Below, piece by piece: positions 2,277 to 44,163 of a stretch of 64,000 nucleotides of DNA. Every line of letters starts with the position of its first letter. Within the stretch, counting starts at the first letter, position 1. The notes beneath the pieces are model-generated. The model was not told the DNA's origin. It saw nothing but the letters and a program-made list of their open reading frames with translations, and did no database searches. The translations under genes and the position numbers were made by a program. The DNA comes from Brachyspira murdochii DSM 12563 (GTDB taxonomy: Bacteria; Spirochaetota; Brachyspiria; Brachyspirales; Brachyspiraceae): NCBI RefSeq assembly GCF_000092845.1, contig NC_014150.1, positions 620,001 to 684,000 on the forward strand, given 5' to 3'.

Positions 2277-4001
2277 TTAATATTTAAACTCCACAGTATA
2301 ATGCGTAACAGCCTCATCGGGCATAATATATTCTCTGTTATTCATTAAAAGCTCAAGCATATCAGCCCTAGCATCATACTCCATACCAGCACGTACATTT
2401 TTTACATAATTATTGACAAAAGGATCAAAATAAGTTCCATCTCTTAATTCTTTTGCTGTTTTTCTCAAATCATTTATTACAATAGAATAATCTTTAATAG
2501 TATTATACATATATTCTATTTGCTTATAGTCTACAAGCTGCACTGCTTTATTATTAATATTAAGCATAACATTTTCACCGCCGCTTTGCCATACCATTAA
2601 TTTATCTGTATAATCTATAGGAGTGATAACTGTCCAATCTTCATCTTTATTAGGCTCTTTATCTTTGGTTAAAAACTGATTAAGACCAGCACTTTTTATA
2701 TGAGCTTCTGTGATAGTAAAATATTCCTGCCCGCTGTCATAAGCAGCTCTTATTTCTTCATAAGGAGGAATAGGAACATAATAAGTTTTATTATTTATTG
2801 TATAAGTTGAATAAGGAGAATTGTCAGATTTATAATATCTTCCATTATCTAATCTTACCCAATTAGGCTCTTCAGGAGTTCTTATCTTTTTTTGTATAGG
2901 TGGTAAATCTCCTCCAACATATTGATCATAAGAATATACCGAATTAGCATTATCATAAGCTGAGGAATTAGGCTCTATATTCCAAATTACGCCGTCGCTG
3001 CTTGACCATATAGTACTATCATTTTCAAAAGACTCTTTTTGAGAAGTCCAATAAGGAGGGCTTATCCATTCCCAATATGATCTTTCGCCTTTTGTAACAT
3101 ATATTTTATCTTTATCATAGCGAACACCAAGATAGCTTCTTTGTCCCCAAGGAGTATTAATCTTCTCCCAATTAGCACCTATAGATGTATCTTTATTTTT
3201 ATATATTCTGTAATAAATGTTCTTGCTTGTTTTAAATGGTCCCTGACTTTCATTTCGGCATCCGCTTGGATTTTGCTCATCAAAATCTTCTTCTAAACCT
3301 ATTAAATATATATAATCCTTAAACTCTACAATTTTATAATATTTAGCTCCGAATCTTCCTTGAAAGCTAGCATTAGGGTCTGTACTTACTGAAGGAAAAG
3401 TTTTATAAACATTATCATCAGAACCTTCTGTTGTCCAATTTATTAAATCTGATGATGTTCTTACTTCATTATTAAAAGTTATGCCTGTGCGAAATGAATG
3501 ATAACCTTCTTCACCTTTACAGTCTTTAGTAGTAAAAGAACTTGAAGAATATGAATACTTTCCATAATAAGAATCTTCATATAAAACTCTGTTTTCTTCT
3601 ATTACATTCATTCTTAATAAATCATCATATCCTTTACTGTCTTTATCATAAACTACTATATTTCCGCTCTCATCTATTTGAAGTATTATATCTTCAGCTT
3701 TTTTATTTAATGCTTTGCTTTTAGTATCATAATCATACATATAGTCAGCCAATATATACCATTTGCCTTGATATTTGAACTTTCTTCTAAAACTTCCGAA
3801 AACTTCTCCGTCTTTAGCGGGTACTGGATTAACATCAACATGACTTGGTATTGTGTCTTCAGGCAATGTAAAATCAGTTGGAGGCGGTATATGTGTAGGG
3901 CTTAAAATATTAATCTTCTTACAGGATATTATCATCACTATTATTAAAATCAATAAAAGAAGTAAAAAATAAATTTTCTTGTTAATAAAATGATTTTTCA
4001 T
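2277..4001 (-). CDS. Large surface lipoprotein, paralogue of the 28.9-30.6 kb gene
   Basis: A 574-residue protein with a lipoprotein signal (hydrophobic residues 10-26, lipobox IISC, mature Cys27), then a Pro-rich tether containing SPTHIPPPTDF. The body shows VFGSFRRKFKYQGKWYILAD and two Asp-box-like motifs, SSDLINW and SSDGVIW, of the kind found on beta-propeller blades; the fold is inference. It ends PDEAVTHYTVEFKY. The 586-residue gene at 28868-30628 has the same layout, tether (HIPPPTEF) and ending (PDRAVTHYTFDIN), so the two are paralogues. The start is supported by AAAGG 7 bases upstream. A candidate promoter (TTGCCT, 17 bases, TATATC) lies at 4136-4164 on this strand, about 40 bp from the GGCTT repeat tract. 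Function unknown; likely a membrane-anchored surface protein. Confidence 0.75.
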   Translation of the reverse strand: MKNHFINKKIYFLLLLLILIIVMIISCKKINILSPTHIPPPTDFTLPEDTIPSHVDVNPVPAKDGEVFGSFRRKFKYQGKWYILADYMYDYDTKSKALNKKAEDIILQIDESGNIVVYDKDSKGYDDLLRMNVIEENRVLYEDSYYGKYSYSSSSFTTKDCKGEEGYHSFRTGITFNNEVRTSSDLINWTTEGSDDNVYKTFPSVSTDPNASFQGRFGAKYYKIVEFKDYIYLIGLEEDFDEQNPSGCRNESQGPFKTSKNIYYRIYKNKDTSIGANWEKINTPWGQRSYLGVRYDKDKIYVTKGERSYWEWISPPYWTSQKESFENDSTIWSSSDGVIWNIEPNSSAYDNANSVYSYDQYVGGDLPPIQKKIRTPEEPNWVRLDNGRYYKSDNSPYSTYTINNKTYYVPIPPYEEIRAAYDSGQEYFTITEAHIKSAGLNQFLTKDKEPNKDEDWTVITPIDYTDKLMVWQSGGENVMLNINNKAVQLVDYKQIEYMYNTIKDYSIVINDLRKTAKELRDGTYFDPFVNNYVKNVRAGMEYDARADMLELLMNNREYIMPDEAVTHYTVEFKY

Positions 4002-4164: not shown

Positions 4165-4205
4165 ATTTTTTTTGATAACTTATAATAAGCTGAGTTTATA
4201 TCATT

Positions 4206-4295
4206 GGCTTGGCTTGGCTTGGCTTGGCTTGGCTTGGCTTGGCTTGGCTTGGCTTGGCTTGGCTTGGCTTGGCTTGGCTTGGCTTGGCTTGGCTT
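4206..4295 (+). repeat. GGCTT pentanucleotide tract, 18 copies
   Basis: Eighteen perfect head-to-tail copies of GGCTT (90 bp) lie in the 528-bp region between two divergent genes, the lipoprotein (start 4001) and the metallophosphoesterase (start 4530). Perfect copies and high G+C against an A+T-rich background mark it as a slippage-prone simple repeat. A frame through it from a TTG at 4172 would encode repeated LAWLG units, but only a poorly spaced AGG lies upstream, so I do not call it a gene. Confidence 0.95.
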
Positions 4296-4445
4296 GGAAC
4301 CTTAAGCAGAAATTATTTAATAACAAATTATACATACTCTTATTCTATAATATAAATATGATTTTTTCAACTTTTATTATATATTTTTTGTATAATTAAT
4401 AATTAAATATAATAACATAATTCATAACTCTAATAATAACTAATA

Positions 4446-4474
4446 TTGATTAATTAATATATTTAATTTATAAT
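4446..4474 (+). promoter_or_regulatory. Promoter for the metallophosphoesterase
   Basis: TTGATT (4446-4451), a 17-base spacer and TATAAT (4469-4474) lie 55 bp before the ATG at 4530. The spacing and perfect -10 make this a good sigma-70-type promoter. The GGCTT tract ends 150 bp upstream of it. Confidence 0.6.
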
Positions 4475-4529
4475 ATAAAAATACAGTTTTAAAAAATTTT
4501 AATTATATTAAATAAAGAGAAATTTTATT

Positions 4530-5597
4530 ATGCCTAAATTATTAATATCAAGCGACCTGCATTTAAGCCTTCAGGAAAAAGAATACTCGCTTTCAGTATT
4601 AGATGAAATATTAGAACAAGCAGAAAATTATGATGCACTTCTTTTACTTGGGGATACTTTTAATACATTTGAAGATTTGCAGGAACTAAAAGATACATTC
4701 TCTAAAAAAATAGAAAACTATAATAAAAATGTATACCTGCTTAAAGGCAATCATGAAAACCTAAAATCAAAAGGAATAACATTAAATAAATTAAAGTTTC
4801 CCGATAACTTAATAGTAATAGAAGATATAAGTTTTTTTAATATAGATAATTTAGATATAGTAGCATTGCCTTATAGTGAAAAATATATTATAGATAATGA
4901 ATTAAATAAAAAAATAGAAAATCTAAATGCTGATAATAGAATAGTAATAGCACATGGTATAGTAGAAGGCACATTATGGGCTATAGAAGAAAATGAAGAG
5001 GCAGCAAGCATACCTATAGATATAATAAAAAAAATAGAGCCTAATATAGCAGTGGTGGGACATATTCATAAACAAATGGAAGTTAATATTGAAAATATAG
5101 AAATAATATACACAGGTTCTGCAAGAGTATGGAGAAGAACAAAATCAGAAATGGGTGAAAGAAGATGTTTGGCTATTGATATACAAAATAACTCTATAAA
5201 TAAAAGTTTTATCAATATAAAAAATGCAGGCGAATACAGAGTATATGAAAGTAATATTTATAATATATCAAATTTAGAACAAAAAGCCTCTGAATGGAAT
5301 ATAAATGATATTATAGATATTAATATTTATGGAATAGCTGAAGATGAAAATGAGCTTGAAGAAAAGATAAACAGCATAAAAAATAAATATTCAAAATATG
5401 TACGTGATATTAATATAAAAACTAAAGAATTATTCCTGCTTGAAAATGCCCACAATGAAAGCATAATAAAAGAGTTTTTAGCTATAGCAGAAGAACATGA
5501 ATTTGCTACTAATAATGAAGAAGACCTAGAGATAGTAGAAATTGCCAAACGTATAGGAATAGAAAAAATATATTCTGCTTTGCAAAATAAGAGATGA
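4530..5597 (+). CDS. Calcineurin-like metallophosphoesterase (SbcD/Mre11-like)
   Basis: A 355-residue two-metal phosphoesterase. All family motifs are present in order: DLH (D9, H11), GD (41-42), GNHE (73-76), AHG with H142, and GHIH (177-180). A C-terminal region of about 150 residues with extended strands and charged helices resembles the capping part of SbcD/Mre11-type DNA repair exonucleases. SbcD proteins normally sit next to an SbcC ATPase, and none is adjacent here, so a nuclease role is inference. Other phosphodiesterase functions are possible. The gene is a single transcription unit: the converging GT9 gene ends 8 bp downstream on the other strand. Confidence 0.75.
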   Translation: MPKLLISSDLHLSLQEKEYSLSVLDEILEQAENYDALLLLGDTFNTFEDLQELKDTFSKKIENYNKNVYLLKGNHENLKSKGITLNKLKFPDNLIVIEDISFFNIDNLDIVALPYSEKYIIDNELNKKIENLNADNRIVIAHGIVEGTLWAIEENEEAASIPIDIIKKIEPNIAVVGHIHKQMEVNIENIEIIYTGSARVWRRTKSEMGERRCLAIDIQNNSINKSFINIKNAGEYRVYESNIYNISNLEQKASEWNINDIIDINIYGIAEDENELEEKINSIKNKYSKYVRDINIKTKELFLLENAHNESIIKEFLAIAEEHEFATNNEEDLEIVEIAKRIGIEKIYSALQNKR

Positions 5598-5605
5598 TAT
5601 AAACT

Positions 5606-6643
5606 TTATATTTTTTTTATTAATCTTTCAGCAAGAAGTTTTGCATCAATATTTTCTATGCATATATGATTATTAGGGCAATTTTTTCTTTTATAGCATC
5701 TAGCACATTCTAAATTTTCAACTCTTATAGTCTCGGAGTTTTTTGCTATAGGACCAACTCGTACTTCACTTGTAGGACCGAATACTGCTATTAATGGTTT
5801 TTGAAATGCACATCCTGTATGCATTGGAAATGAATCTACTGTAACCATTCCCTTTGATTTTTTTATTAAATACGCTAATTCTGGTAAATTAAAAAGCCCA
5901 GAACTATTTAAAACATTATCAAATCCTTTCACTATTTCCAAACATTCTTTATCATAATCTGATGTGGCTGACAGTATTATCTGTATATCCTTTAATTTTT
6001 GTATCTCTTTGATTATTTCTCTTGATTTATTTACTGATAAATCTTTAGTATCCCATCTTGAAAATGGAGAAAAAACTATGTACTCTTTATCTATATTAAA
6101 ATTACTGTTTATGCTGTACTTTATATGTTCTATTTTTTTATTAAAATCAGCTTCTATAGTATCAGGTAAAAAATAGTCCAAATCAGTACCGTCATTAGGA
6201 CAATCAATAAACTTCAAAAAAGATATAAGCCCCTCTATAGCATTTATATCTTTATAATAATTACTTTTTACTCCAATCCATTTACCCTTAGCATATTTCT
6301 TTTTAGCATGACATAAATATAAAAATATTATGCTTCTCTCAAGTCCCTGCAAATCCATAGCTATATCATAACTCTCTTTTCTTACTTCAGATATATGAGA
6401 AATAAACTCTCTTATAGTAGAAAAAAATAATAAAGGAGATTTAAATATTTCTTTTTCATATCTGTATATATCCAAAACATACAATTTGTTTATATAAGGA
6501 TTATTTTCTAATATACCTAATGCTCTTTTATCTGTTACTACATCTATTTGACAGTCAGCCTTCCATTTCTTCAATGCCCTTATAACAGGTGTCATATGAA
6601 GAACATCTCCTAAAGAAGTTTGCTTTATTAAAAGTATTTTCAT
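5606..6643 (-). CDS. Glycosyltransferase family 9 (heptosyltransferase-like)
   Basis: A GT-B fold enzyme of 345 residues related to ADP-heptose:LPS heptosyltransferases. The N-terminus MKILLIKQTSLGDVLHMTPV is the typical GT9 start, and the C-terminal donor-site region shows GMVTVDSFPMHTGCAF followed by KPLIAVFGPTSE. A Cys-rich tail (CARCYKRKNCPNNHIC) is common in spirochaete and other GT9 proteins. It probably adds a sugar to the core of the cell-envelope lipooligosaccharide; the sugar cannot be told from sequence. It is monocistronic, converging on the metallophosphoesterase with an 8-bp gap. Confidence 0.85.
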   Translation of the reverse strand: MKILLIKQTSLGDVLHMTPVIRALKKWKADCQIDVVTDKRALGILENNPYINKLYVLDIYRYEKEIFKSPLLFFSTIREFISHISEVRKESYDIAMDLQGLERSIIFLYLCHAKKKYAKGKWIGVKSNYYKDINAIEGLISFLKFIDCPNDGTDLDYFLPDTIEADFNKKIEHIKYSINSNFNIDKEYIVFSPFSRWDTKDLSVNKSREIIKEIQKLKDIQIILSATSDYDKECLEIVKGFDNVLNSSGLFNLPELAYLIKKSKGMVTVDSFPMHTGCAFQKPLIAVFGPTSEVRVGPIAKNSETIRVENLECARCYKRKNCPNNHICIENIDAKLLAERLIKKI

Positions 6644-6744
6644 AAAATCATATAGCCTGCTTTATTATAATATAATAATCATATAATAATTTTATAATAT
6701 ATCAATAAAAAATTATAAAAATAAAAAAATTACTATAAGCAGTA

Positions 6745-6789
6745 TTGACAAATATTACTTTATATAGTAATATTACTACATAAAGTAAT
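6745..6789 (+). promoter_or_regulatory. Promoter with 36-bp palindromic operator
   Basis: TTGACA (6745-6750), 17 bases, and TAATAT (6768-6773) form a strong promoter for the substrate-binding protein at 6824. A palindrome at 6754-6789 is centred on the -10: outer arms ATTACTTTAT and ATAAAGTAAT, inner core AGTAATATTACT, with 17 of 18 base pairs matching. It covers roughly -26 to +10, the position of a repressor operator. No regulator gene is adjacent. Confidence 0.7.
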
Positions 6790-6823
6790 TATATACTTGA
6801 ACATTTTAATAAAGGAAATAACA

Positions 6824-7813
6824 ATGAAAAAAAATCATATTATAATTTTTATATTAATAGCAGTATTCGTATTAGTAGGAGCATTCGGTATAAGCAGGCA
6901 TGAAAATGATAAAAAGACAAACGCATCAAATGATAAGGTAGTAAAGATAGGTATAAGCCAGATGATAGAGCATGATGCATTAGATTTGATATATAAGGGA
7001 ATAGAAGATGAACTTAATAAATACTATAATAACAGAAGTAAAAAAATAGTAATAGACTATAAAAATGCTCAGGGAGAGCAGGCAAATTGTAATACTATAG
7101 CACAAAAGTTTGTTAATGATAAAAGCGATATCATAATAGCAATAGGCACTCCAGCAGCTCAGTCGGCTGTAAATCTCACCAAAGACATACCAATAATAGC
7201 TTCGGGCATAGGCGATCCAATAGGTGCAAAATTGGTAACCAATCTTAATAAACCTAATGTAAATGTAACAGGCACCATAAATCTTCCTCCTATAGAAAAA
7301 CAAATAGAACTCATGCATACACTACTTCCTAATGCCAAAAAAATAGGACTTTTATACTGCTCAAGCGAAATTAATTCATTATATCAGATAAAATTAGCAA
7401 AAGAAAAATTAGATTCATTAGGACTTGAATATATAGACTTGACTGTTGCAAATGCAAATGAAATACAGCAGATGATGATAAGTGCTGCCGATAAAGTCGA
7501 TGCTATATTTTCACCTACTGATAATATTATAGCAAATAGTATGGCAAATGTGGCTATGATAGAAGAAAGCGAAAAACTTCCAGTTATATGTGCTGATGCT
7601 GGAATGACAAAAATAGGCGGTACTGTAACATATTCGGTTGATTATTATGATATGGGAGTTCTTACTGCTAAAAAAGCAATAGAAGTTTTGGAAGGAATTA
7701 AAGATATAAAAAACATACCTCTTGAAACAGTTGACAGCTACAATTTCGTTGTAAATACAAATATGATAAATAGATTGGGACTTACTATACCTAATGATAT
7801 ATATATGAATTAA
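6824..7813 (+). CDS. ABC transporter substrate-binding protein (TrpX-like family)
   Basis: Periplasmic binding component of the ABC_sub_bind family (Pfam PF04392), which includes tryptophan/tyrosine binding proteins such as TrpX. The ATG at 6824 has AAAGG upstream and gives an N-terminal hydrophobic segment (MKKNHIIIFILIAVFVLVGA) with no lipobox Cys, so it is a signal peptide or anchor; an ATG at 6797 in frame lacks a ribosome site. Family motifs include VVKIGISQMIEHDALD at the mature start, IIAIGTPAAQSAVN and IPIIASGIGDP. The permease and ATPase that normally follow are absent: an intrinsic terminator lies just downstream. The ligand is unknown. Confidence 0.8.
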   Translation: MKKNHIIIFILIAVFVLVGAFGISRHENDKKTNASNDKVVKIGISQMIEHDALDLIYKGIEDELNKYYNNRSKKIVIDYKNAQGEQANCNTIAQKFVNDKSDIIIAIGTPAAQSAVNLTKDIPIIASGIGDPIGAKLVTNLNKPNVNVTGTINLPPIEKQIELMHTLLPNAKKIGLLYCSSEINSLYQIKLAKEKLDSLGLEYIDLTVANANEIQQMMISAADKVDAIFSPTDNIIANSMANVAMIEESEKLPVICADAGMTKIGGTVTYSVDYYDMGVLTAKKAIEVLEGIKDIKNIPLETVDSYNFVVNTNMINRLGLTIPNDIYMN

Positions 7814-23361: not shown

Positions 23362-25242
23362 TTAATTCTTTTTTCTATGTATCAAATAATATATAAAATT
23401 TATAACTATAATTACAGCCAATAAAACAGAAACAGCTATATACGAATAAAAAGAAACATCATTAGCCGTGTAAAATATTTTAGGAAGTTTCCAATCTACT
23501 TTTTTAAATGAAGCAAATTTTTCTAAATCATCTTTTTGTTCTAAGCTAAACCCTGTAAACTGTTTATAATTATCATCAAAAAATATTAAACTGTTTGGGT
23601 GAGTAAAATTATAATAATTATTATTTGTTTTGTAAATAGATCCTTCTTCTTTAGACTCAAAAGTTTCAAGTCCGTAACCGTATATTGGTTCATAAGGAAA
23701 TCTGCTTGAATGCAAATTATAATCATTACTTAAAAACTGTTCTAATATTTTACCCTCGCCCTCTTCTGATATTTCTGTTATTTTATAATTATTATTACTT
23801 CCTAAATCATTAATTTTATTCCAAACTTCCATACCGATTTTTAAATCTACATTTCTAAAAGGCTCTCCATAATAAAAATTGTCCGCATGTTTATATACAA
23901 AAAAGAATATCGTATATATATTTAATAAAAGCATTACTGCCGCAAATTTTCTCTTATCAAATAATTTGTATTTATTTAAAAGATAAGATAAAAATATAGA
24001 AAAAGGAAGTATTAATACAGAACATATCCTTAATCTTAAATTCATTTTCTTTAAGAAAGGAAATAAACTATTAATTATACCATTATCATAATGAATATCA
24101 AAAACCAAATAAAACCATATAATAAAAAGAATAATTTTTAATTTATCAAATTTACTTAAATTAATAATATACTCTTTAATATCTTTTCTATTGATAATAA
24201 TTATTGCTATAATTATAGGAAGCATCATAAAAGGAAGTGATATATCTCTCTCCCATATCCCTCTATATTGGATATTAAAAAATAAATTCAATGAAAATAA
24301 CTTCTCTATAAAACCAACAACAGATAAAATTAAATTATAATAAATTACTTCAAATACTTTATAAAAAGGAACATTATCAACCATAAGTCTTCCCCTATCT
24401 ATTTTTGAAGCCAAAATAAATATAGGAATAAGCCTTGATAAACTTAAAACAAAAGATAATAATACAGAAAGTATTACAGCTATACATTTTTTTACAAAAT
24501 CAAAATCCAGTTTAAAAAATATTACAGCAGCACCCAATAATACAAAACAAGTATAGAAAAATATTGTGTGAATTGCTCCTCCGAATATCATGGCAGAAAA
24601 TACAAAAGCACCAGAAAATACTCTAATAATAAAACTAAACTTTAATTTTGATATAGTATTAGAAAAAAATATAAAAACAATAAATGCAGTTAATGGATGA
24701 TATATAAATGTCCAATGCCCTACTTTAAGATGATAAATATAATAACCAGTGCAGGAAAAAAATACAGCCCCAGTTAAAGAACTGATAAAATTAAAATTAA
24801 AATCTTTTTTAAGAAGAATATACACAGATATAAAACCAATAATAGAAAACAAAAAAGTAAGTACATTATAACTATACCAAAAAGGCATAATTAAAGTAAG
24901 AAAATATAAAGGCGAATACTGATGCCAATTAGGATTAGCATAACTTAAAAGCCCGCCTCCAAATAAAGGAGAAGCCCATTCTATATCAAGTCCATTATTC
25001 TGATAATATAAAAACATACTCATAGCCCTAGCCTCTATTTGGGAATAATCATGTCCTATATAAGGATAATTGCTATTTAAAAGTATAATTTGTGATATTG
25101 AAGAAGCTAAACAAAATAATATTAAAATAAATTTTTCTTTTTTACTATTTAAAGCTATATTAAAAATATCTTTATCAGATTTAATTATATATACAAATGA
25201 AACTATAAATAATATAGTTATTAAATAAAATAATATTATCAT
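23362..25242 (-). CDS. Polytopic membrane protein, YfhO/GT-C-like
   Basis: A 626-residue protein with about twelve hydrophobic helices and a C-terminal soluble part of about 150 residues before a last helix. The first large loop holds YIGHDYSQIEARAMSMFLYY and later ANPNWHQYSPLYFLTLIMPF, the type of acidic/aromatic loop found in GT-C sugar transferases and YfhO-like proteins. Third gene of the GT2 operon. Inferred role: transfer of a lipid-linked sugar onto a surface polymer. An SD-like AGGAAAG precedes the ATG. Upstream of it lies a 44-bp fragment identical to the 3' end of the GT2 gene. Confidence 0.55.
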   Translation of the reverse strand: MIILFYLITILFIVSFVYIIKSDKDIFNIALNSKKEKFILILFCLASSISQIILLNSNYPYIGHDYSQIEARAMSMFLYYQNNGLDIEWASPLFGGGLLSYANPNWHQYSPLYFLTLIMPFWYSYNVLTFLFSIIGFISVYILLKKDFNFNFISSLTGAVFFSCTGYYIYHLKVGHWTFIYHPLTAFIVFIFFSNTISKLKFSFIIRVFSGAFVFSAMIFGGAIHTIFFYTCFVLLGAAVIFFKLDFDFVKKCIAVILSVLLSFVLSLSRLIPIFILASKIDRGRLMVDNVPFYKVFEVIYYNLILSVVGFIEKLFSLNLFFNIQYRGIWERDISLPFMMLPIIIAIIIINRKDIKEYIINLSKFDKLKIILFIIWFYLVFDIHYDNGIINSLFPFLKKMNLRLRICSVLILPFSIFLSYLLNKYKLFDKRKFAAVMLLLNIYTIFFFVYKHADNFYYGEPFRNVDLKIGMEVWNKINDLGSNNNYKITEISEEGEGKILEQFLSNDYNLHSSRFPYEPIYGYGLETFESKEEGSIYKTNNNYYNFTHPNSLIFFDDNYKQFTGFSLEQKDDLEKFASFKKVDWKLPKIFYTANDVSFYSYIAVSVLLAVIIVINFIYYLIHRKKN

Positions 25243-25312: not shown

Positions 25313-26884
25313 TTAATCTTTCATATATCTGTAAACAGCTAAAACATCATCTCCCCATATCTTTACAGCATCTTCTGGTATAGGCTTATTTTTTCCTTCT
25401 TTTACATCAGTCCATTTACCTGTAAAAAAGTACATATCTCTATTAAAAATAAAATATGTTAATTTTGCTTCTTCATTCATATTCCATTCATCAGATATTC
25501 CATACATAATAGATGCAAATTTATACATTTCTTTAATAGTTGAAATAGTTCTTATTGTATTTAAATCAAAATCTTCTCCATTAGAATCATTTATTATTGA
25601 CTGCATTAATGCCTTGTGATTATCATAACTATATTGTTTTGTATACAGATTTATTGTCCTAAAAATATGTAAAGAAAGAGCAATACTTACAAAAATGGCA
25701 AATATAGGTAAAAAAGTTTTTAATTTCATAAAACGTCCTTCCTCTATATATTTTGTTAATATTAATATAGGAACAAATGATAAAGCAAATGCATTATAAA
25801 TATAATGAAAAGTACCGGGTTTTGATTTAGCTATAAAAAACACTAGTAATGTTGTAGGTATATATATTAAATATAATATCATACTTTCTCTTAGCATTAT
25901 ATCTCTAACATCAAGAGATTGATTATTTTTTGTAAACACTTTTTTGGCAGAAAAAACAAAAGCAGTTATAGAAAAAGCTGCTGTGAGTAAAAGCATTAAT
26001 GCCATAAAAACTAAAAAAGGATTATCTTTAAACCAAAAATAAAGTATAGCATTAGTTCTTCCGTAAAAGATAGACATTTCTGTTGTAGGGTATATTAGCA
26101 TGCAGTAAATTTGAGGAAGACCTACTAATTTTCCTCCTTCCCTAAATGAAAGCATTGATAATGTATTTGAAAAACCATTGTTAATTTCACTAATCAAATA
26201 AGGTAAATACAATAAAAAAGATATAAATACACTTATTAATAGCGGAACTATATATTTCTTTGTAAGTGTTTTAAATCTTATGATATGGTAAACTATTAAT
26301 GACGGCACTATCGAAAAAAATACAGCAAAATGACACTGAGCCATTAAAGCAATAATAGGAAACATAAATAATGCTGAAACATATGAATATTTTCCATCTG
26401 ATACATATTCGCAAAATAATATTAGTAATATAAATGATAAATATATCATTGGATTTGGATTATAAATATCTATACTAGCAAAAAATAAATAAGCATTGCA
26501 TAATAATAAGGCAGTAAATACAGCAGTTATATATTTTCCAAACCTTTTATAAAGCCACAATAAAAATACAAATAAAACTACAAAACATAGAAACATAAAC
26601 ACAATACGTGAAATAAAAAAATTATCATTTGTTATTCTATAAATGAATGTATACAATATATAATAAAACCCGCCCGGCATTCTAGGGGTATAGTCAGCAT
26701 CAGCATTCCACATTTTTGTACCTAAAACTGGTATGGAATTCATATTATATAAAGTTACCATGTCATCATACTGTTTAAATTGATCAAAATCGGCTTTTGC
26801 CCTTGGAAATCCATATATATGTATTATTATTGTAAGTATAATAGGAATTATAAATGCACTATATAATATGATATTCTTTTTCAT
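25313..26884 (-). CDS. GT-C family glycosyltransferase (PMT/GT39-like)
   Basis: A 523-residue polytopic protein with about eleven hydrophobic helices. The first periplasmic loop contains ADFDQFKQYDDMV and ADADYTPRMPGGFYYILYTF, resembling the acidic loop and PPL-type motif of dolichyl/polyprenyl-phosphate-sugar transferases. A soluble C-terminal domain of about 100 residues ends the protein. It lies 17 bp downstream of the GT2 gene, with AAGGA before the ATG. GT2 enzymes of this kind make polyprenyl-phosphate sugars which GT-C enzymes then use, so the pair is a coherent two-step pathway. Acceptor unknown. Confidence 0.7.
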   Translation of the reverse strand: MKKNIILYSAFIIPIILTIIIHIYGFPRAKADFDQFKQYDDMVTLYNMNSIPVLGTKMWNADADYTPRMPGGFYYILYTFIYRITNDNFFISRIVFMFLCFVVLFVFLLWLYKRFGKYITAVFTALLLCNAYLFFASIDIYNPNPMIYLSFILLILFCEYVSDGKYSYVSALFMFPIIALMAQCHFAVFFSIVPSLIVYHIIRFKTLTKKYIVPLLISVFISFLLYLPYLISEINNGFSNTLSMLSFREGGKLVGLPQIYCMLIYPTTEMSIFYGRTNAILYFWFKDNPFLVFMALMLLLTAAFSITAFVFSAKKVFTKNNQSLDVRDIMLRESMILYLIYIPTTLLVFFIAKSKPGTFHYIYNAFALSFVPILILTKYIEEGRFMKLKTFLPIFAIFVSIALSLHIFRTINLYTKQYSYDNHKALMQSIINDSNGEDFDLNTIRTISTIKEMYKFASIMYGISDEWNMNEEAKLTYFIFNRDMYFFTGKWTDVKEGKNKPIPEDAVKIWGDDVLAVYRYMKD

Positions 26885-26901: not shown

Positions 26902-27831
26902 TTATTCTATTGTTTTTTTAATAATATATTCAGGTCTTTTTTTGATTTCATTAAATATATTGGCTAAATACTCACTAATAACAGACAGTGAAATTAGCTG
27001 AAAACCACCCATAAAAAGAATTGTAATTATAATAGAAGCCCAGCCTTTTACTAGAGTCTCTGGATTAAATAAATACAAATAAAACACTCTGATAGAAAAA
27101 GCTAAAGCAATAAATATAGCGAGTATACCTAAAAATAATGATATTCTTAAAGGCTTAACAGAAAATGATAAAATTCCTGTAAGAGCCAACTTAAGCATTT
27201 TCTTAAAAGTATATTTTGTATGCCCTGCTGCTCTTGCATCTCTCTCATATTCGAAAGCTCTCTGTTCAAAACCAGTCCAGCTTATTAAACCTCTTATGTA
27301 TTTTGGATTTTCACTAAAAGATTTATACGCTTCTATAACATTTTTATCTATAAGTCTAAAGTCTCCAGTATCAACTGGGAACTTTACTTCTGAGAGCAAA
27401 TTTATCAAACGGTAAAATAATGATGCTGTTAGTTTCTTAAATATACTCTCACCCTTCCTTGAAACTCTTTTACCATAAATAATAGGTGTTTTGGTTTTTT
27501 CATATTCTTTTATCATATCCGGTATAATTTCAGGAGGGTCTTGTAAGTCAGCATCTATTATTACAGCTATATCCCCTTTAGAGTTATGTATTCCGCAGCT
27601 TACTGCAGCCTGATGTCCAAAGTTGCGTGAAAAAGAAAAAAGTTTTACTCTGCTGTCTTTTTTATTTAATTCTTCTATTATCTGTTCGGTTTTATCTTTA
27701 CTGCCGTCATTAACAAAAATAAATTCGCATTCATAGTCTGATAATTTTTTAGAAACATTATTTATTCTTTCATAGAGTGTATTTAAAACTTCTTCTTCAT
27801 TATAGCAGGGTATTATTATACTAATTTTCAT
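26902..27831 (-). CDS. Glycosyltransferase family 2, polyprenyl-phosphate sugar synthase (GtrB/DPM1-like)
   Basis: A 309-residue inner-membrane enzyme. The GT-A catalytic domain (1-230) starts MKISIIIPCYNEEEVLNTLY, with FVNDGSKDKTE, FGHQAAVSCGI, the metal-binding DAD in IIDADLQDPPEI, and KPLRISLF before two C-terminal transmembrane helices. This arrangement matches GtrB/ArnC-type proteins that transfer a sugar from a nucleotide to undecaprenyl phosphate. It is the first gene of a three-gene operon. Its own ribosome site (GGCGGTG) is weak, and a translated leader ORF containing 24 heptanucleotide repeats lies upstream and may control it by coupling. Confidence 0.85.
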   Translation of the reverse strand: MKISIIIPCYNEEEVLNTLYERINNVSKKLSDYECEFIFVNDGSKDKTEQIIEELNKKDSRVKLFSFSRNFGHQAAVSCGIHNSKGDIAVIIDADLQDPPEIIPDMIKEYEKTKTPIIYGKRVSRKGESIFKKLTASLFYRLINLLSEVKFPVDTGDFRLIDKNVIEAYKSFSENPKYIRGLISWTGFEQRAFEYERDARAAGHTKYTFKKMLKLALTGILSFSVKPLRISLFLGILAIFIALAFSIRVFYLYLFNPETLVKGWASIIITILFMGGFQLISLSVISEYLANIFNEIKKRPEYIIKKTIE

Positions 27832-27878
27832 AATACACCGCCATAAATATATTTTTTTTGCAATGACAATAGATTATA

Positions 27879-28064
27879 TTATTTATTAATATACTGATTT
27901 CTGATTTCTGATTTCTGATTTCTGATTTCTGATTTCTGATTTCTGATTTCTGATTTCTGATTTCTGATTTCTGATTTCTGATTTCTGATTTCTGATTTCT
28001 GATTTCTGATTTCTGATTTCTGATTTCTGATTTCTGATTTCTGATTTCTGATTTCTGATTTCAT
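27879..28064 (-). CDS. Repeat-containing leader ORF upstream of GT2
   Basis: ATG at 28064-28062 with AAGGA (28075-28071) six bases upstream, behind a strong promoter. The frame encodes M, then eight KSEIRNQ units, then YINK, 61 residues. Twenty-four copies of a 7-bp unit make the frame (three units = seven codons). The signals for transcription and translation are good, but such a peptide has no evident function. Its likely meaning is regulatory: unit gain or loss changes the reading frame at its end relative to the GT2 start. Confidence 0.4.
   Translation of the reverse strand: MKSEIRNQKSEIRNQKSEIRNQKSEIRNQKSEIRNQKSEIRNQKSEIRNQKSEIRNQYINK
27894..28061 (-). repeat. 24-copy heptanucleotide tandem repeat (AAATCAG)
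   Basis: 168 bp of perfect CTGATTT (AAATCAG on the coding strand) between the promoter and first gene of the glycan operon. Perfect units of a length not divisible by three are the classic substrate for slipped-strand phase variation. Confidence 0.95.
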
Positions 28065-28093
28065 AAATCTTCCTTAAAAACTAATACCATTTT

Positions 28094-28122
28094 ATTATAC
28101 ATCATAATAATATAAATTTCAA
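28094..28122 (-). promoter_or_regulatory. Promoter of the GT2 operon
   Basis: TTGAAA (28122-28117), 17 bases, TATAAT (28099-28094) on the minus strand. Transcription would start near 28087, just before the leader ORF and its repeat tract. Confidence 0.7.
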
Positions 28123-36289: not shown

Positions 36290-37348
36290 ATGATAAAAGT
36301 ATCTGTTATAGGTGCAACCGGTTATGCAGGAATAGAATTAATAAGACTATTATTATCGCATAGTAAAGTAGAATTAAAAAATCTTTCTTCAAAAAGTTTT
36401 GTAGGTAAAAACATTAATGAAATATATGCTAATCTAAACAAAAATTGTGATAAAATATTAGCAGATGAAAATGAAATATTTGAAGATACTGATGTAGTAT
36501 TTGCTTCGCTTCCTGCAGGATTAAGCGATGACATTGCAAATAAATGCTTTGAAAAAAATATTTTGTTTATAGATTTGGGTGCTGATTTCAGACTAGACAA
36601 TGAGGAAGATTATAAAAAATGGTACGGCAAAGAATATAAGTACAAAAATATACATAAAGAAGCAATATATTCAATACCAGAAATAATTAAATACGATAGT
36701 GTATATAATAAAAAAGATTTAAAAAAAGCAAAAATTATAGGAAATCCGGGCTGCTACCCTACTTCTATAGGTTTAGCATTAGCTCCGGCATTGGTAAAAA
36801 AAATAATATTAAAAGATGATATTATAATAGATTCAAAATCGGGAGCTACAGGTGCAGGACGTGAATTAAAATTAAATACTCATTTTACAGAATGTAATGA
36901 GGCTTTCTCTCCATATAAAGTTGCAGAACATAGACATACACCAGAAATAGAACAAACATTATCAAATATATACGGAGAAGATATAAAAGTAACTTTTGTT
37001 CCGCACTTGCTTCCATTAAACAGAGGAATAATTTCAACGATATATGCTAAATTAGAAAATAAAAATGATACATTAGAAAATATACACAGTATTTATAAAG
37101 AGTTTTATAAGGATTCAAAGTTTGTAAGGGTGCTTAATATAGGAGAGACTGCCAATTTAAAATATGTTAAATACTCAAACTACTGTGATATATCTTTGCA
37201 TATGGACAGCAGAACAAATAAATTAATAATAGTATCAGCAATAGATAATATGGTAAAAGGAGCAGCAGGACAGGCAATACAAAACATGAATATAGCATTA
37301 GGATTAAAAGAAGATGAGGGATTGAATATAATTCCTCCAGCTTTTTAA
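36290..37348 (+). CDS. argC: N-acetyl-gamma-glutamyl-phosphate reductase
   Basis: Third step of arginine synthesis: NADPH-dependent reduction of N-acetylglutamyl phosphate to the semialdehyde. 352 residues. N-terminal dinucleotide fold VIGATGYAGIELIRLLLSH, catalytic Cys in KIIGNPGCYPTSIG (about residue 155), and the His-bearing VAEHRHTPEIEQTL are intact. AGAGGAG precedes the ATG. First gene of argC-argJ-argB-argD, behind a leader with an Arg-Arg peptide. Confidence 0.95.
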   Translation: MIKVSVIGATGYAGIELIRLLLSHSKVELKNLSSKSFVGKNINEIYANLNKNCDKILADENEIFEDTDVVFASLPAGLSDDIANKCFEKNILFIDLGADFRLDNEEDYKKWYGKEYKYKNIHKEAIYSIPEIIKYDSVYNKKDLKKAKIIGNPGCYPTSIGLALAPALVKKIILKDDIIIDSKSGATGAGRELKLNTHFTECNEAFSPYKVAEHRHTPEIEQTLSNIYGEDIKVTFVPHLLPLNRGIISTIYAKLENKNDTLENIHSIYKEFYKDSKFVRVLNIGETANLKYVKYSNYCDISLHMDSRTNKLIIVSAIDNMVKGAAGQAIQNMNIALGLKEDEGLNIIPPAF

Positions 37349-37364
37349 TAAATAATTATTTTAA

Positions 37365-37790
37365 TAAAAAGTAATTTTAAGCTATAAGCAAGCATCTGAT
37401 AAATTGTGAAGGAAGTTGTCAGCTGATTAAAAGCGAGTTTATAGCTAGCAACAAAAAAATAATTTTAAAGCTATAAGCAAGCATCTGATAAATTGTGAAG
37501 GAAGTTGTCAGCTGATTAAAAGCGAGTTTATAGCTAGCAACAAAAAAATAATTTTAAAGCTATAAACGAACAGCTGATAACTGGAAGTTGTCAGCTGATT
37601 AAAAGCGAGTTTATAGCTAGCAACAAAAAAATAATTTTAAAGCTATAAACGAACAGCTGATAACTGGAAGTTGTCAGCTAATTTAAAGCGAGTTTATAGC
37701 TAGCAACAAAAAAATAATTTTAAAGCTATAAACGAGCAGCTGATAACTGGAAGTTGTCAGCTAATTTAAAGCGAGTTTATAGCTAGCAAC
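37365..37790 (+). repeat. Five tandem hairpin repeats between argC and argJ
   Basis: Five head-to-tail units: 37365-37452, 37453-37541, 37542-37624, 37625-37707 and 37708-37790, of 88, 89, 83, 83 and 83 bp. Each starts with an A-run and ends TTATAGCTAGCAAC. Within each unit AGCTATAAAC-type and GTTTATAGCT arms enclose an inner pair, CAGCTGATAACT with AGTTGTCAGCTG (one G-U), so each can fold into a nested hairpin. Two sub-types exist: units 1-2 (GCATCTGATAAATTGTGAAG loop) and units 3-5. The last unit ends 6 bp before the AGGAG of argJ. Confidence 0.95.
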
Positions 37791-37805
37791 AATAGGAGAT
37801 TATAA

Positions 37806-39038
37806 ATGTATAGTTTTAAACAAATTGAAGGCGGTGTATGTGCTGCTAAAGGCTTCAAAGCAAATGGAGTACATGCTGGTATAAAGAAAAATAGTGAAAA
37901 AAAAGATTTAGCAATAATTTACAGTGAAAGTTTATGTTCAGTAGGAGCTGTATATACACAGAATAAAGCCTGCGGAGCGAATATCACTGTAAGTAAAGAG
38001 CATTTAAAAGATGGAAAAGCAAAAGCTGTTATATGCAATTCTGGAAATGCTAATACCTGCAATAGAGACGGAGTTGAAAAAGCAAAAGAAATGTGTAAAC
38101 TAGCAGCAGAAGTTTTGGGCATTGATGAAAAAGATGTTGCCGTTGCTTCTACTGGCGTTATAGGTGTGCCTCTCAATATAGAGCCTATACAAAAAAATAT
38201 AAAAACATTAATAGATAATCTAGGTAATTCTAAAGAACATGCCCAAAATGCAGCAGCAGCTATAATGACAACTGATACATTTATGAAAGAAATTGCTTAT
38301 GAATTTGAAATTGACGGAAAAATAGTTCATATAGGAGGAATGTCAAAAGGAAGCGGTATGATTCACCCTAATATGGCTACTATGCTTGCATTTGTAACTA
38401 CTGACTGTAATATTACAAGTGAAATGCTGCAAAAGGCATTAAGCGAGGATGTAAAATCTACTTATAATATGGTTAGTGTTGATGGAGATACTTCTACCAA
38501 TGACATGTGTGTAGTGCTTGCTAATGGAGAAGCTAAAAATAATATAATAGATAAAGAAGATGATAATTATAAAATATTTTGTAAAGCATTAAATATGGTC
38601 AATACATATTTATCAAAACAAATGGCCAAAGACGGAGAAGGTGCTACCAAATTAATAGAATGCGAAGTAATAAATGCAAGCGATATAAAATTGGCTAGAA
38701 AAATAGCAAAATCTGTAATTACTTCAAATTTGGTAAAAGCTGCAATGTTCGGATGCGATATGAACTGGGGACGTATTTCTTGTGCTATAGGCTATACTGA
38801 AGACGCTGATTTTGATATCAATAAAGTATCTATAAATGTGGGTTCTAAATACGGTGAGATGAATGTTTATAAAGACGGATACGGTGTAGAGTTCAGCGAA
38901 GAAGAGGCTTTAAAAATATTAAAAGAAGATGAAATAAAAATTACAATAGATATGAACTCTGGCACAAGTAAAGCTGTTGCTTGGGGCTGTGATTTAACTT
39001 ATGATTATGTAAAAATTAACGGCTCTTACAGAAGTTAA
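37806..39038 (+). CDS. argJ: Bifunctional ornithine acetyltransferase/N-acetylglutamate synthase
   Basis: Recycles the acetyl group from N-acetylornithine to glutamate. 410 residues. The autocleavage site is the Thr in PNMATMLAFVTTDCN (about residues 192-206), which splits the precursor into alpha and beta chains; GAVYTQNKACGANITVSKEH and KGSGMIHP are further family blocks. Start ATG has AGGAG 7 bases upstream. Whether it is mono- or bifunctional cannot be decided by eye, but no separate argA or argE is adjacent, which favours a cyclic pathway. The gene follows the hairpin array. Confidence 0.93.
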   Translation: MYSFKQIEGGVCAAKGFKANGVHAGIKKNSEKKDLAIIYSESLCSVGAVYTQNKACGANITVSKEHLKDGKAKAVICNSGNANTCNRDGVEKAKEMCKLAAEVLGIDEKDVAVASTGVIGVPLNIEPIQKNIKTLIDNLGNSKEHAQNAAAAIMTTDTFMKEIAYEFEIDGKIVHIGGMSKGSGMIHPNMATMLAFVTTDCNITSEMLQKALSEDVKSTYNMVSVDGDTSTNDMCVVLANGEAKNNIIDKEDDNYKIFCKALNMVNTYLSKQMAKDGEGATKLIECEVINASDIKLARKIAKSVITSNLVKAAMFGCDMNWGRISCAIGYTEDADFDINKVSINVGSKYGEMNVYKDGYGVEFSEEEALKILKEDEIKITIDMNSGTSKAVAWGCDLTYDYVKINGSYRS

Positions 39039-42876: not shown

Positions 42877-43359
42877 ATGGAAATAATAAAATACGAAAAA
42901 AAATATCTTAAAGAAGCATTAAATATATGGAATGAGATAATAAAAGAAGGAATATATTTTCCTCAAATAGAAACTCTAACAAATGAAGAAGAGGCTCATA
43001 AATACTTTAGCTCGCAGGATTATACAGGTATTGCCTATGAAGACAATAAAATATACGGAGTTTATATACTTCACCCAAACAATATAGGAAGATGCGGACA
43101 TATATCTAATGCTTCATATGCTGTGAGTAAAGATGCAAGAGGAAAAGGTATAGGAGAGGCTTTAGTAAGAGATTCTATAAAAAAAGGTGCTGAGCTTGGA
43201 TATAAAATACTTCAGTTTAATGCCGTTGTAATATCCAATAATGCAGCACACAAACTATATGAAAAAATTGGGTTTAATAAAATAGGAATAGTAAAAAATG
43301 GATATCTTAATAAAAATAATGAATACGAAGATATTGTGCTTTATTATATAGATTTATGA
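42877..43359 (+). CDS. GNAT family N-acetyltransferase
   Basis: Start ATG at 42877 with AAAGG 7 bases upstream; an ATG at 42838 would overlap the symporter gene and lacks a site. About 160 residues with the acetyl-CoA loop KDARGKGIGEALVRDSI and the C-terminal NNAAHKLYEKIGFNKIGIVK, typical of phosphinothricin-acetyltransferase-like GNAT enzymes. Substrate unknown. Its 3' part (from 43151) lies in the first copy of a 439-bp tandem duplication but this copy remains intact. Confidence 0.85.
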   Translation: MEIIKYEKKYLKEALNIWNEIIKEGIYFPQIETLTNEEEAHKYFSSQDYTGIAYEDNKIYGVYILHPNNIGRCGHISNASYAVSKDARGKGIGEALVRDSIKKGAELGYKILQFNAVVISNNAAHKLYEKIGFNKIGIVKNGYLNKNNEYEDIVLYYIDL

Positions 43360-43376
43360 TTTAAGGATAAAATTTT

Positions 43377-43592
43377 ATGGATTTAAAAAAAGTAAAAATA
43401 GAAATATATATACCAGAAGAATATACTGATAAATTAAGAGAGGCTTTAAATAGTATAGGGGCTTTAGGTGTTGGTAACTATGATAATGTTATGTCTGTAA
43501 CAAAAATTACTGGATATTGGCGTCCTTTAGAAGGAGCTAATCCTTTTGACGGAGAAGTTGATAAAATATCAAAAGCTCCTGAAGATAAATAG
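43377..43592 (+). pseudogene. Truncated YqfO-like gene created by the duplication
   Basis: Identical to the first 71 codons of the intact gene at 43816-44163, then stopped by a TAG formed at the duplication junction. It keeps the ribosome site and start, so a 71-residue fragment lacking the HPYEEP half of the domain may still be made. It is probably unstable or inactive. Confidence 0.9.
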
Positions 43593-43798
43593 GAGAGGCT
43601 TTAGTAAGAGATTCTATAAAAAAAGGTGCTGAGCTTGGATATAAAATACTTCAGTTTAATGCCGTTGTAATATCCAATAATGCAGCACACAAACTATATG
43701 AAAAAATTGGGTTTAATAAAATAGGAATAGTAAAAAATGGATATCTTAATAAAAATAATGAATACGAAGATATTGTGCTTTATTATATAGATTTATGA
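43590..43798 (+). pseudogene. GNAT 3' fragment in the second duplication copy
   Basis: Carries the codons for GEALVRDSIKKGAELG through the C-terminus of the GNAT protein but no start or N-terminal half. It matches 43151-43359. Not expected to be translated. Confidence 0.9.
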
Positions 43799-43815
43799 TT
43801 TAAGGATAAAATTTT

Positions 43816-44163
43816 ATGGATTTAAAAAAAGTAAAAATAGAAATATATATACCAGAAGAATATACTGATAAATTAAGAGAGGCTTTAAATAGTATAGGAG
43901 CTTTAGGTGTTGGTAACTATGATAATGTTATGTCTGTAACAAAAATTACTGGATATTGGCGTCCTTTAGAAGGAGCTAATCCTTTTGACGGAGAAGTTGA
44001 TAAAATATCAAAAGCTCCTGAAGATAAAGTAGAGTTTTCAACCGATATAAAAAATGTGGAAAATATTATTAAGGTTATGAAAGAAGTTCACCCATATGAA
44101 GAGCCCGTGATGAATATAATACCATTAATCAATGACAGATTTAATATTGTATTAAATTATTAA
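43816..44163 (+). CDS. Stand-alone YqfO/NIF3 insert-domain protein (CutA/PII-like fold)
   Basis: A 115-residue protein equal to the domain that is inserted in YqfO-type NIF3 proteins. Core motifs are YIPEEYTDKLREALNSIGAL, GNYDNV, YWRPLEGANPFDGEVDK and the ending VHPYEEPVMNIIPL. The domain has a CutA/PII-like ferredoxin fold and is found free in many bacteria. Molecular role is unclear; metal or nucleotide binding has been suggested for relatives. This is the intact copy after the tandem duplication. Confidence 0.8.
   Translation: MDLKKVKIEIYIPEEYTDKLREALNSIGALGVGNYDNVMSVTKITGYWRPLEGANPFDGEVDKISKAPEDKVEFSTDIKNVENIIKVMKEVHPYEEPVMNIIPLINDRFNIVLNY

Follow-up and report, generated by a model that had tools for sequence, protein, structure and literature searches.

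Promoter-spacing repeats of the Haemophilus hifA/hifB type lie upstream of the gene, and leaders of the ermC type act by attenuation with a sequestered start. In gtr operons the known phase variation is epigenetic (OxyR/Dam). The GtrB-GtrC and Pgf sets are built from a polyprenyl-phosphate GT2 glycosyltransferase followed by large membrane proteins. Contingency genes of Haemophilus, Neisseria and Campylobacter (lic, mod and others) carry simple repeats inside the gene (PMC2651432, PMC11868660), and the coat and lysis genes of phages are translationally coupled with a sequestered start (PMC9955659). The nearest precedent for the locus described here is the in-gene heptamer of NeuO in the Escherichia coli K1 prophage CUS-3, where phase variation depends on AAGACTC units (PMC13001214). 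The terms 'translational coupling', 'upstream open reading frame' and 'leader' are all absent from the 2025 review among these sources (of PMC2651432 and PMC11868660). The open-licence literature searched on Brachyspira yielded no report of repeat-driven phase variation; matches were confined to typing studies and unrelated contexts. Simple repeats and phase variation are unmentioned in the genome papers of B. pilosicoli and B. intermedia, and the genome paper of B. murdochii contains neither 'phase' nor any repeats but CRISPR (genome papers PMC3035287, PMC2897892 and PMC3163572). Leader-gated repeat switching of surface genes would apparently be an undescribed design.

The window, i.e., the whole stretch of DNA analysed, comprised 64,000 nt of Brachyspira murdochii DSM 12563 (GCF_000092845.1; NC_014150.1, positions 620,001–684,000, forward strand). 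Its minus strand reads, in order, TTGAAA-17-TATAAT, AAGGAAGA, ATG (at 28064), (AAATCAG)24, TATATTAATAAATAA and the GT2 gene, which begins at 27831 (Table 1). A sequence-only reading had described 24 perfect 7-bp units within a leader ORF with its own promoter and ribosome site, just ahead of GT2; TRF and an 11/12 promoter match confirmed this description. The array is a perfect tandem repeat of a non-triplet unit, as in contingency loci, and its 24 copies far exceed what chance could produce. Its sense strand has zero stop codons in all three frames, and the present leader ends in RNQYINK-TAA. The −35 and −10 elements are kept across orthologues, and the order of Shine-Dalgarno sequence, ATG and array was found again at other loci.

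Table 1. Coordinates of features at the GT2 locus (positions within the window)
Feature	Position	Strand	Evidence or remark
626-aa membrane protein, third gene of putative operon	23362..25242	-	ORF; no family match
523-aa membrane protein, second gene of putative operon	25313..26884	-	ORF; no family match
GT2 glycosyltransferase, 309 aa, PgfS/ArnC-like (polyprenyl-phosphate sugar transferase type)	26902..27831	-	PF00535, E 7e-35
Predicted hairpin over GT2 ribosome site and start codon, −15 to +32	27800..27846	-	MFE −17.7 kcal/mol (111-nt region), z −1.9
TAG ending the leader at +11 of GT2 if n = 2 mod 3	27821..27823	-	Frame reading
Spacer between array and GT2, 62 nt	27832..27893	-	Frame of n = 2 mod 3 open throughout; other two stop at −47 / −54
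GT2 ribosome site GGCGGTG, inside predicted hairpin	27836..27842	-	Sequence and fold
TTGCAA motif	27858..27863	-	Recurs 3' of arrays
Leader ORF in present phase (24 units), 61 aa, MKSEIRNQ...YINK	27879..28064	-	TAA ends at −47 of GT2
(AAATCAG)24.1 array	27894..28062	-	TRF: CTGATTT x 24.1, 100% matches
Leader Shine-Dalgarno AAGGAAGA	28068..28075	-	Sequence
Predicted leader promoter TTGAAA-17-TATAAT	28094..28122	-	Consensus scan only, 11/12 matches

Unit number alters the translated outcome, as at contingency loci. The frame arithmetic proposed earlier held: the leader stops at −47 with 24 units, at −54 with 25 units, and with 23 or 26 units at a TAG ending at +11 of GT2 (the 'eight bases past' the ATG of the sequence-only reading). 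A stop just past the GT2 start in one phase is the geometry of translational coupling, and this leader–GT2 arrangement, also claimed beforehand, was found again in orthologues and, beyond them, at over 20 loci. NeuO and Brachyspira GT2 share a heptanucleotide array, a mod-3 frame, a surface-sugar gene and a wide copy range. However, the units of NeuO make up the 5' portion of its own coding sequence and the ON state is an in-frame fusion, whereas the Brachyspira leader is separate, out of frame and ends at the start codon; the own frame of GT2 is closed at −54, so the locus is not of the in-gene type (NeuO/Lic/Mod). Contingency genes of Haemophilus, Neisseria and Campylobacter likewise have slippage-prone tandem repeats governing surface glycan genes, but there the repeats sit in the gene or its promoter and not in a separate leader. 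Promoter-spacing phase variation was considered and rejected because the array lies downstream of the predicted promoter: it begins 32 nt past the predicted −10 element, within the translated leader, unlike arrays of the hifA/hifB type, with which it shares a position upstream of the gene.

No intrinsic terminator was found in the window spacer. Comparison of the locus with Rfam revealed no known RNA family (the sole match was a chance snoRNA below the cut-off), and PADLOC gave no defence-system match. A motif TC[AG]TTGCAA with an A/T run is located 24–75 nt past the array in the window spacer and in 15 other spacers; within the last 100 nt it was present in 12 of 27 spacers vs. 51 of 560 control regions.

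The GT2 product belongs to the Glycos_transf_2 family (PF00535; 120.8 bits at a gathering score of 23.3). With 298 bits against NCBIfam PgfS (NF047588; curated cut-off 500) it is PgfS-like but not PgfS, and its nearest profiles, PgfS and the ArnC-type polyprenyl-phosphate sugar transferases, both scored under their curated cut-offs. The nearest named orthologue is that of B. innocens (97% identity). The gene for the 523-aa membrane protein is also found downstream of GT2 in another genome of the set, G008. A polyprenyl-phosphate GT2 with large membrane proteins after it resembles the GtrB-GtrC and Pgf glycan-modification sets; gtr operons switch epigenetically (OxyR/Dam), whereas Brachyspira GT2 would do so by repeats. 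The window GT2 likely has a role in surface glycan. Glycan-type targets had been suggested from the sequence, and the family assignment of GT2 agrees with this, as do other arrays that precede PMT_2 and GT87 genes; further array-led genes encode an RmlC-type epimerase, YidC-like proteins and lipoproteins.

Folding predictions placed the GT2 ribosome site and start codon within a hairpin. The ribosome site had been described as weak; the fold points instead to poor access, GGCGGTG being buried in the predicted structure. A downstream ribosome site sequestered in this way, as predicted at the window GT2, is characteristic of translational coupling. The predicted cost of opening the region −18 to +3 was 13.9 kcal/mol, at the 98th percentile of 441 control genes having a ribosome site. 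Array-led genes as a group had higher opening costs than controls (mean 10.3 vs. 5.4 kcal/mol, p 7e-8; per-family p 0.0035; median 11.8 vs. 5.0 kcal/mol). Among GT2 homologues, those with an array had opening costs of 11.7–15.0, G008 excepted, and those without (77–80% identity and more distant) only 2.8–7.9; the hairpin is therefore no by-product of conserved GT2 codons. The arm that buries the site varies among orthologues, being on the coding (downstream) side in B. murdochii (G000) and G024 and upstream in G017. The orthologue in G008 has no hairpin (opening cost 4.1) yet two open phases. Strong sequestration was also absent at loci 3, 6, 7, 10, 11, 13 and 16 and at the lipoprotein loci 20–22, so that an OFF state there requires another cause; the lipoprotein loci have neither a start hairpin nor a spacer terminator. 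By themselves, early leader stops would not turn off a gene that has a ribosome site of its own; at the window GT2 the predicted hairpin would supply the OFF state. Since one locus (L148, below) has a spacer terminator instead, Brachyspira may silence untranslated spacers by different means.

Among 26 Brachyspira genomes, AAATCAG arrays were found only ahead of orthologous GT2 genes, in five genomes; four have 24, 10, 16 and 13 units, and the fifth, whose array is cut by a contig end, has 11 or more. Two copies of the GT2 locus in G008 were considered and rejected, as the two contigs overlap identically and represent one locus. A second GT2 family, 65–67% identical and with one member at 79.9 kb on the same chromosome, has the same layout, but its unit is AAACAGC and its leader and spacer are unrelated to those of the AAATCAG locus; the unit numbers are 7, 31, 11, 10, 5 and at least 11. 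In every complete array of both families, some phase stops the leader at the GT2 start, with TGA at +4 inside ATGA, TAG at +11 or TAG at −10. Searches among relatives of GT2 outside Brachyspira (13 non-Brachyspira loci and one Spirochaetia MAG) revealed no such arrays. In the array-free orthologue of G025, the same promoter region lies directly 5' of GT2, whose ATG aligns with that of the leader in the arrayed orthologues; this adjacency is expected if the leader is a gate inserted between promoter and gene. At two loci (L097 and L100, in G002 and G020) the AAACAGC array and leader are kept and GT2 is lost, and a PMT-type transferase is next, 235 nt away.

Variable copy number among close relatives, which supports the sequence-only reading, was seen between genomes at the AAACAGC locus, where 7 and 31 units are embedded in flanks 99.5% identical on both sides. 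At two further loci, arrays of 8.0 vs. 15.4 and 12.7 vs. 13.7 units had flanks 93–98% identical. In these between-genome comparisons copy number outpaces flank change, as at contingency loci. Over all loci unit numbers ranged from about 5 to 43; counts from draft genomes may be wrong.

The genus-wide survey targeted arrays of 4–11 bp units not divisible by 3 in sampled 20-kb stretches, placed partly on a regular grid and partly at glycan genes, so its numbers are sample counts rather than a full census. Units included AAAC, AACAG, AGCAG, CCAAG, TACAA, CAAGC, AACTCAG, AACAGTC, AGCAACA, AGCAATC and others. In 24 of 25 arrays (4-, 5- and 7-bp units; nine Brachyspira genomes) some exit frame crossed the spacer without a stop, ending at most 25 nt short of the next start or past it. 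Dinucleotide shuffling gave an expectation of 6.2 of 25 (P 3e-23), and matched upstream regions of 970 genes from the same stretches gave 7.7 (P 5e-13). GT-C-like gene families share ancestry and the 25 loci are not fully independent; when each family was represented by a single locus, such a frame was still present in 15 of 16 (2.7 expected). At the sole exception, the GT2 that would separate the array from the next gene has been lost. Spacers were AT-rich and 62–282 nt long, and the open frame usually ended in ATGA, TGATG or a stop at +11. A leader ATG, mostly a few bases 5' of the array and often preceded by TTGAC...TATAAT-like and GGA-type sites, feeds the array in 22 of 25 cases, with units open in the sense frames; three arrays instead occupy the 3' end of a preceding gene. 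The downstream gene's own frame was closed in 23 of 25 arrays, and gene fusion is thus not the purpose of the arrangement. When the same arrays were read toward a divergent gene, a frame was open in only one of nine. A prediction (−25 to +14) was fixed before 400 kb of another genome was sampled, and two of three new arrays agreed with it, one of them with 282 nt open and ending in ATGA; the third had an open frame and no leader ATG. A few loci other than the window GT2 locus have two open phases. At their sequenced unit numbers, 8 of 23 loci are in an open phase, the proportion expected if one phase in three is open, and no pattern can be inferred.

Three loci from the same material had particular layouts. 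In the window, a (TTGGC)18.8 array at 4204–4297 has a minus-strand leader ATG 38 nt 5' of it, and one phase is open for 202 nt, in frame into a 574-aa lipoprotein-like gene (2277–4001); in its counterpart in G009 (L190) one phase ends at −10 instead. L148 (G000:C1:1335001-1355000) contains at 5687–7737 a tandem GT2 pair. The 3' end of the first gene carries (AACAG)15, and a perfect intrinsic terminator, translated through in one frame only, lies in the spacer before the second GT2; the same site in G005 has a single GT2 without the AACAG array. L151 has (ATCGC)11.4 at 5486–5542 with a leader ATG; 197 nt stay open in one frame, which stops 37 nt into a small ORF that has a strong SD.

We consider it probable that the leader array of GT2 is a phase-variable switch acting by translational coupling. 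One mRNA for leader and GT2 would arise from the predicted promoter, and ribosomes would begin at the leader ATG and read through the stop-free heptamers. Slipped-strand mispairing, presumed to occur in culture, would alter the unit number, and because 7 is not divisible by 3, every unit gained or lost would shift the exit frame. At n = 2 mod 3 (23, 26 and so on) ribosomes would traverse the spacer, melt the hairpin and stop at +11, turning GT2 ON by coupling. In the other phases, including the sequenced one of 24 units, their stops would lie at −54 or −47, leaving a gap of about 30 nt to the hairpin; the hairpin would stay closed, with GT2 OFF or low. GT2 would retain its own start codon and never be fused to the leader. 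The predicted hairpin starts at −15, so ribosomes halting at −47 or −54 should leave it intact, and those reaching +11 must melt it. The three expression states proposed earlier were therefore not retained: the −47 and −54 stops should be equivalent, and two states are expected at the window locus, a better fit than three. As in coat–lysis and ermC-type systems, translation of the upstream ORF to the next start would open a hairpin; in those systems the gate is constant or depends on a drug or protein, whereas in Brachyspira a heritable repeat number would set it. The anatomy, the frames, their recurrence, the between-genome change in copy number and the predicted folding bias are established; ON/OFF expression and an altered surface glycan would be the consequences.

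Neutral slippage, by which a microsatellite expanded by chance and without function ahead of GT2, is very improbable. Taken alone, the window locus has an open frame that is within chance (shuffled versions of the 62-nt spacer have one in 48–72% of cases, dinucleotide shuffles in about half, a non-significant result), and G025 lives without an array. Nevertheless, the full layout recurs with unrelated units and spacers, the start codons behind it are predicted to be sequestered, and AAATCAG is confined to the GT2 locus. The wide range of unit numbers would suit gradual tuning of leader length, mRNA structure or stability, independent of frame. Such tuning would not require a frame that is open up to the following start codon, but 24 of the 25 loci possess such a frame, and at 22 of 25 the units are sense-open with an ATG feeding them; we regard gradual tuning as highly unlikely. 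Classical in-gene phase variation, with the leader as an N-terminal extension of GT2 at some copy numbers, is the kind of reading that the window TTGGC array and L187, where in-frame fusion is possible, would allow. A stop in the spacer closes the gene frame not only at the GT2 locus but in 23 of 25 arrays overall, for which in-frame fusion was ruled out on this ground, and in-gene variation is thus an extremely improbable account of the GT2 locus.

An effect of the frame on transcription deserves more weight, although we think it unlikely. An untranslated spacer would permit Rho-dependent or intrinsic termination, and ribosomes in the open phase would block it. The terminator in the L148 spacer, traversed by the open frame only, fits this reading, and loci without a start hairpin require some such cause. 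Spacers also have more C than G (345 to 258) and controls less (4191 to 5732), but the same bias is expected from stop avoidance in one frame. The window spacer is without a terminator, spacers of 62–110 nt are short for Rho, and strong predicted hairpins at start codons favour an effect on initiation at the window locus. Translational coupling remains our preferred reading for GT2, and the same device, with other units and spacers, would operate ahead of many glycosyltransferase, membrane-protein and lipoprotein genes of the genus. On balance, though less firmly than for the single locus, we favour a Brachyspira-specific, genus-wide system of phase variation in which dozens of surface genes each have their own promoter, an unfused repeat-filled leader and a hairpin-locked start opened only by ribosomes in the right frame. 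As no repeat-driven phase variation turned up in the Brachyspira papers searched, many switchable surface genes may have gone unnoticed in these gut spirochetes, which live in pigs, birds and people. The switch would stand apart from the protein, the unit number leaving enzyme sequence and promoter untouched and setting only the arrival of leader ribosomes. Repeat-finding software restricted to genes or promoter elements would miss the design or call the leader a spurious ORF. The design predicts the ON/OFF state of each locus from its unit number, which is readable in long reads.

Two longer repeats were detected elsewhere in the window. An 83-bp unit is repeated 4.5 times at 37411–37792, between the genes 36290–37348 and 37806–39038, and has inverted-repeat character. 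At 43150–44028 there is a direct duplication of 439 bp (2.0 copies, 99% identity), seemingly inside a coding region.
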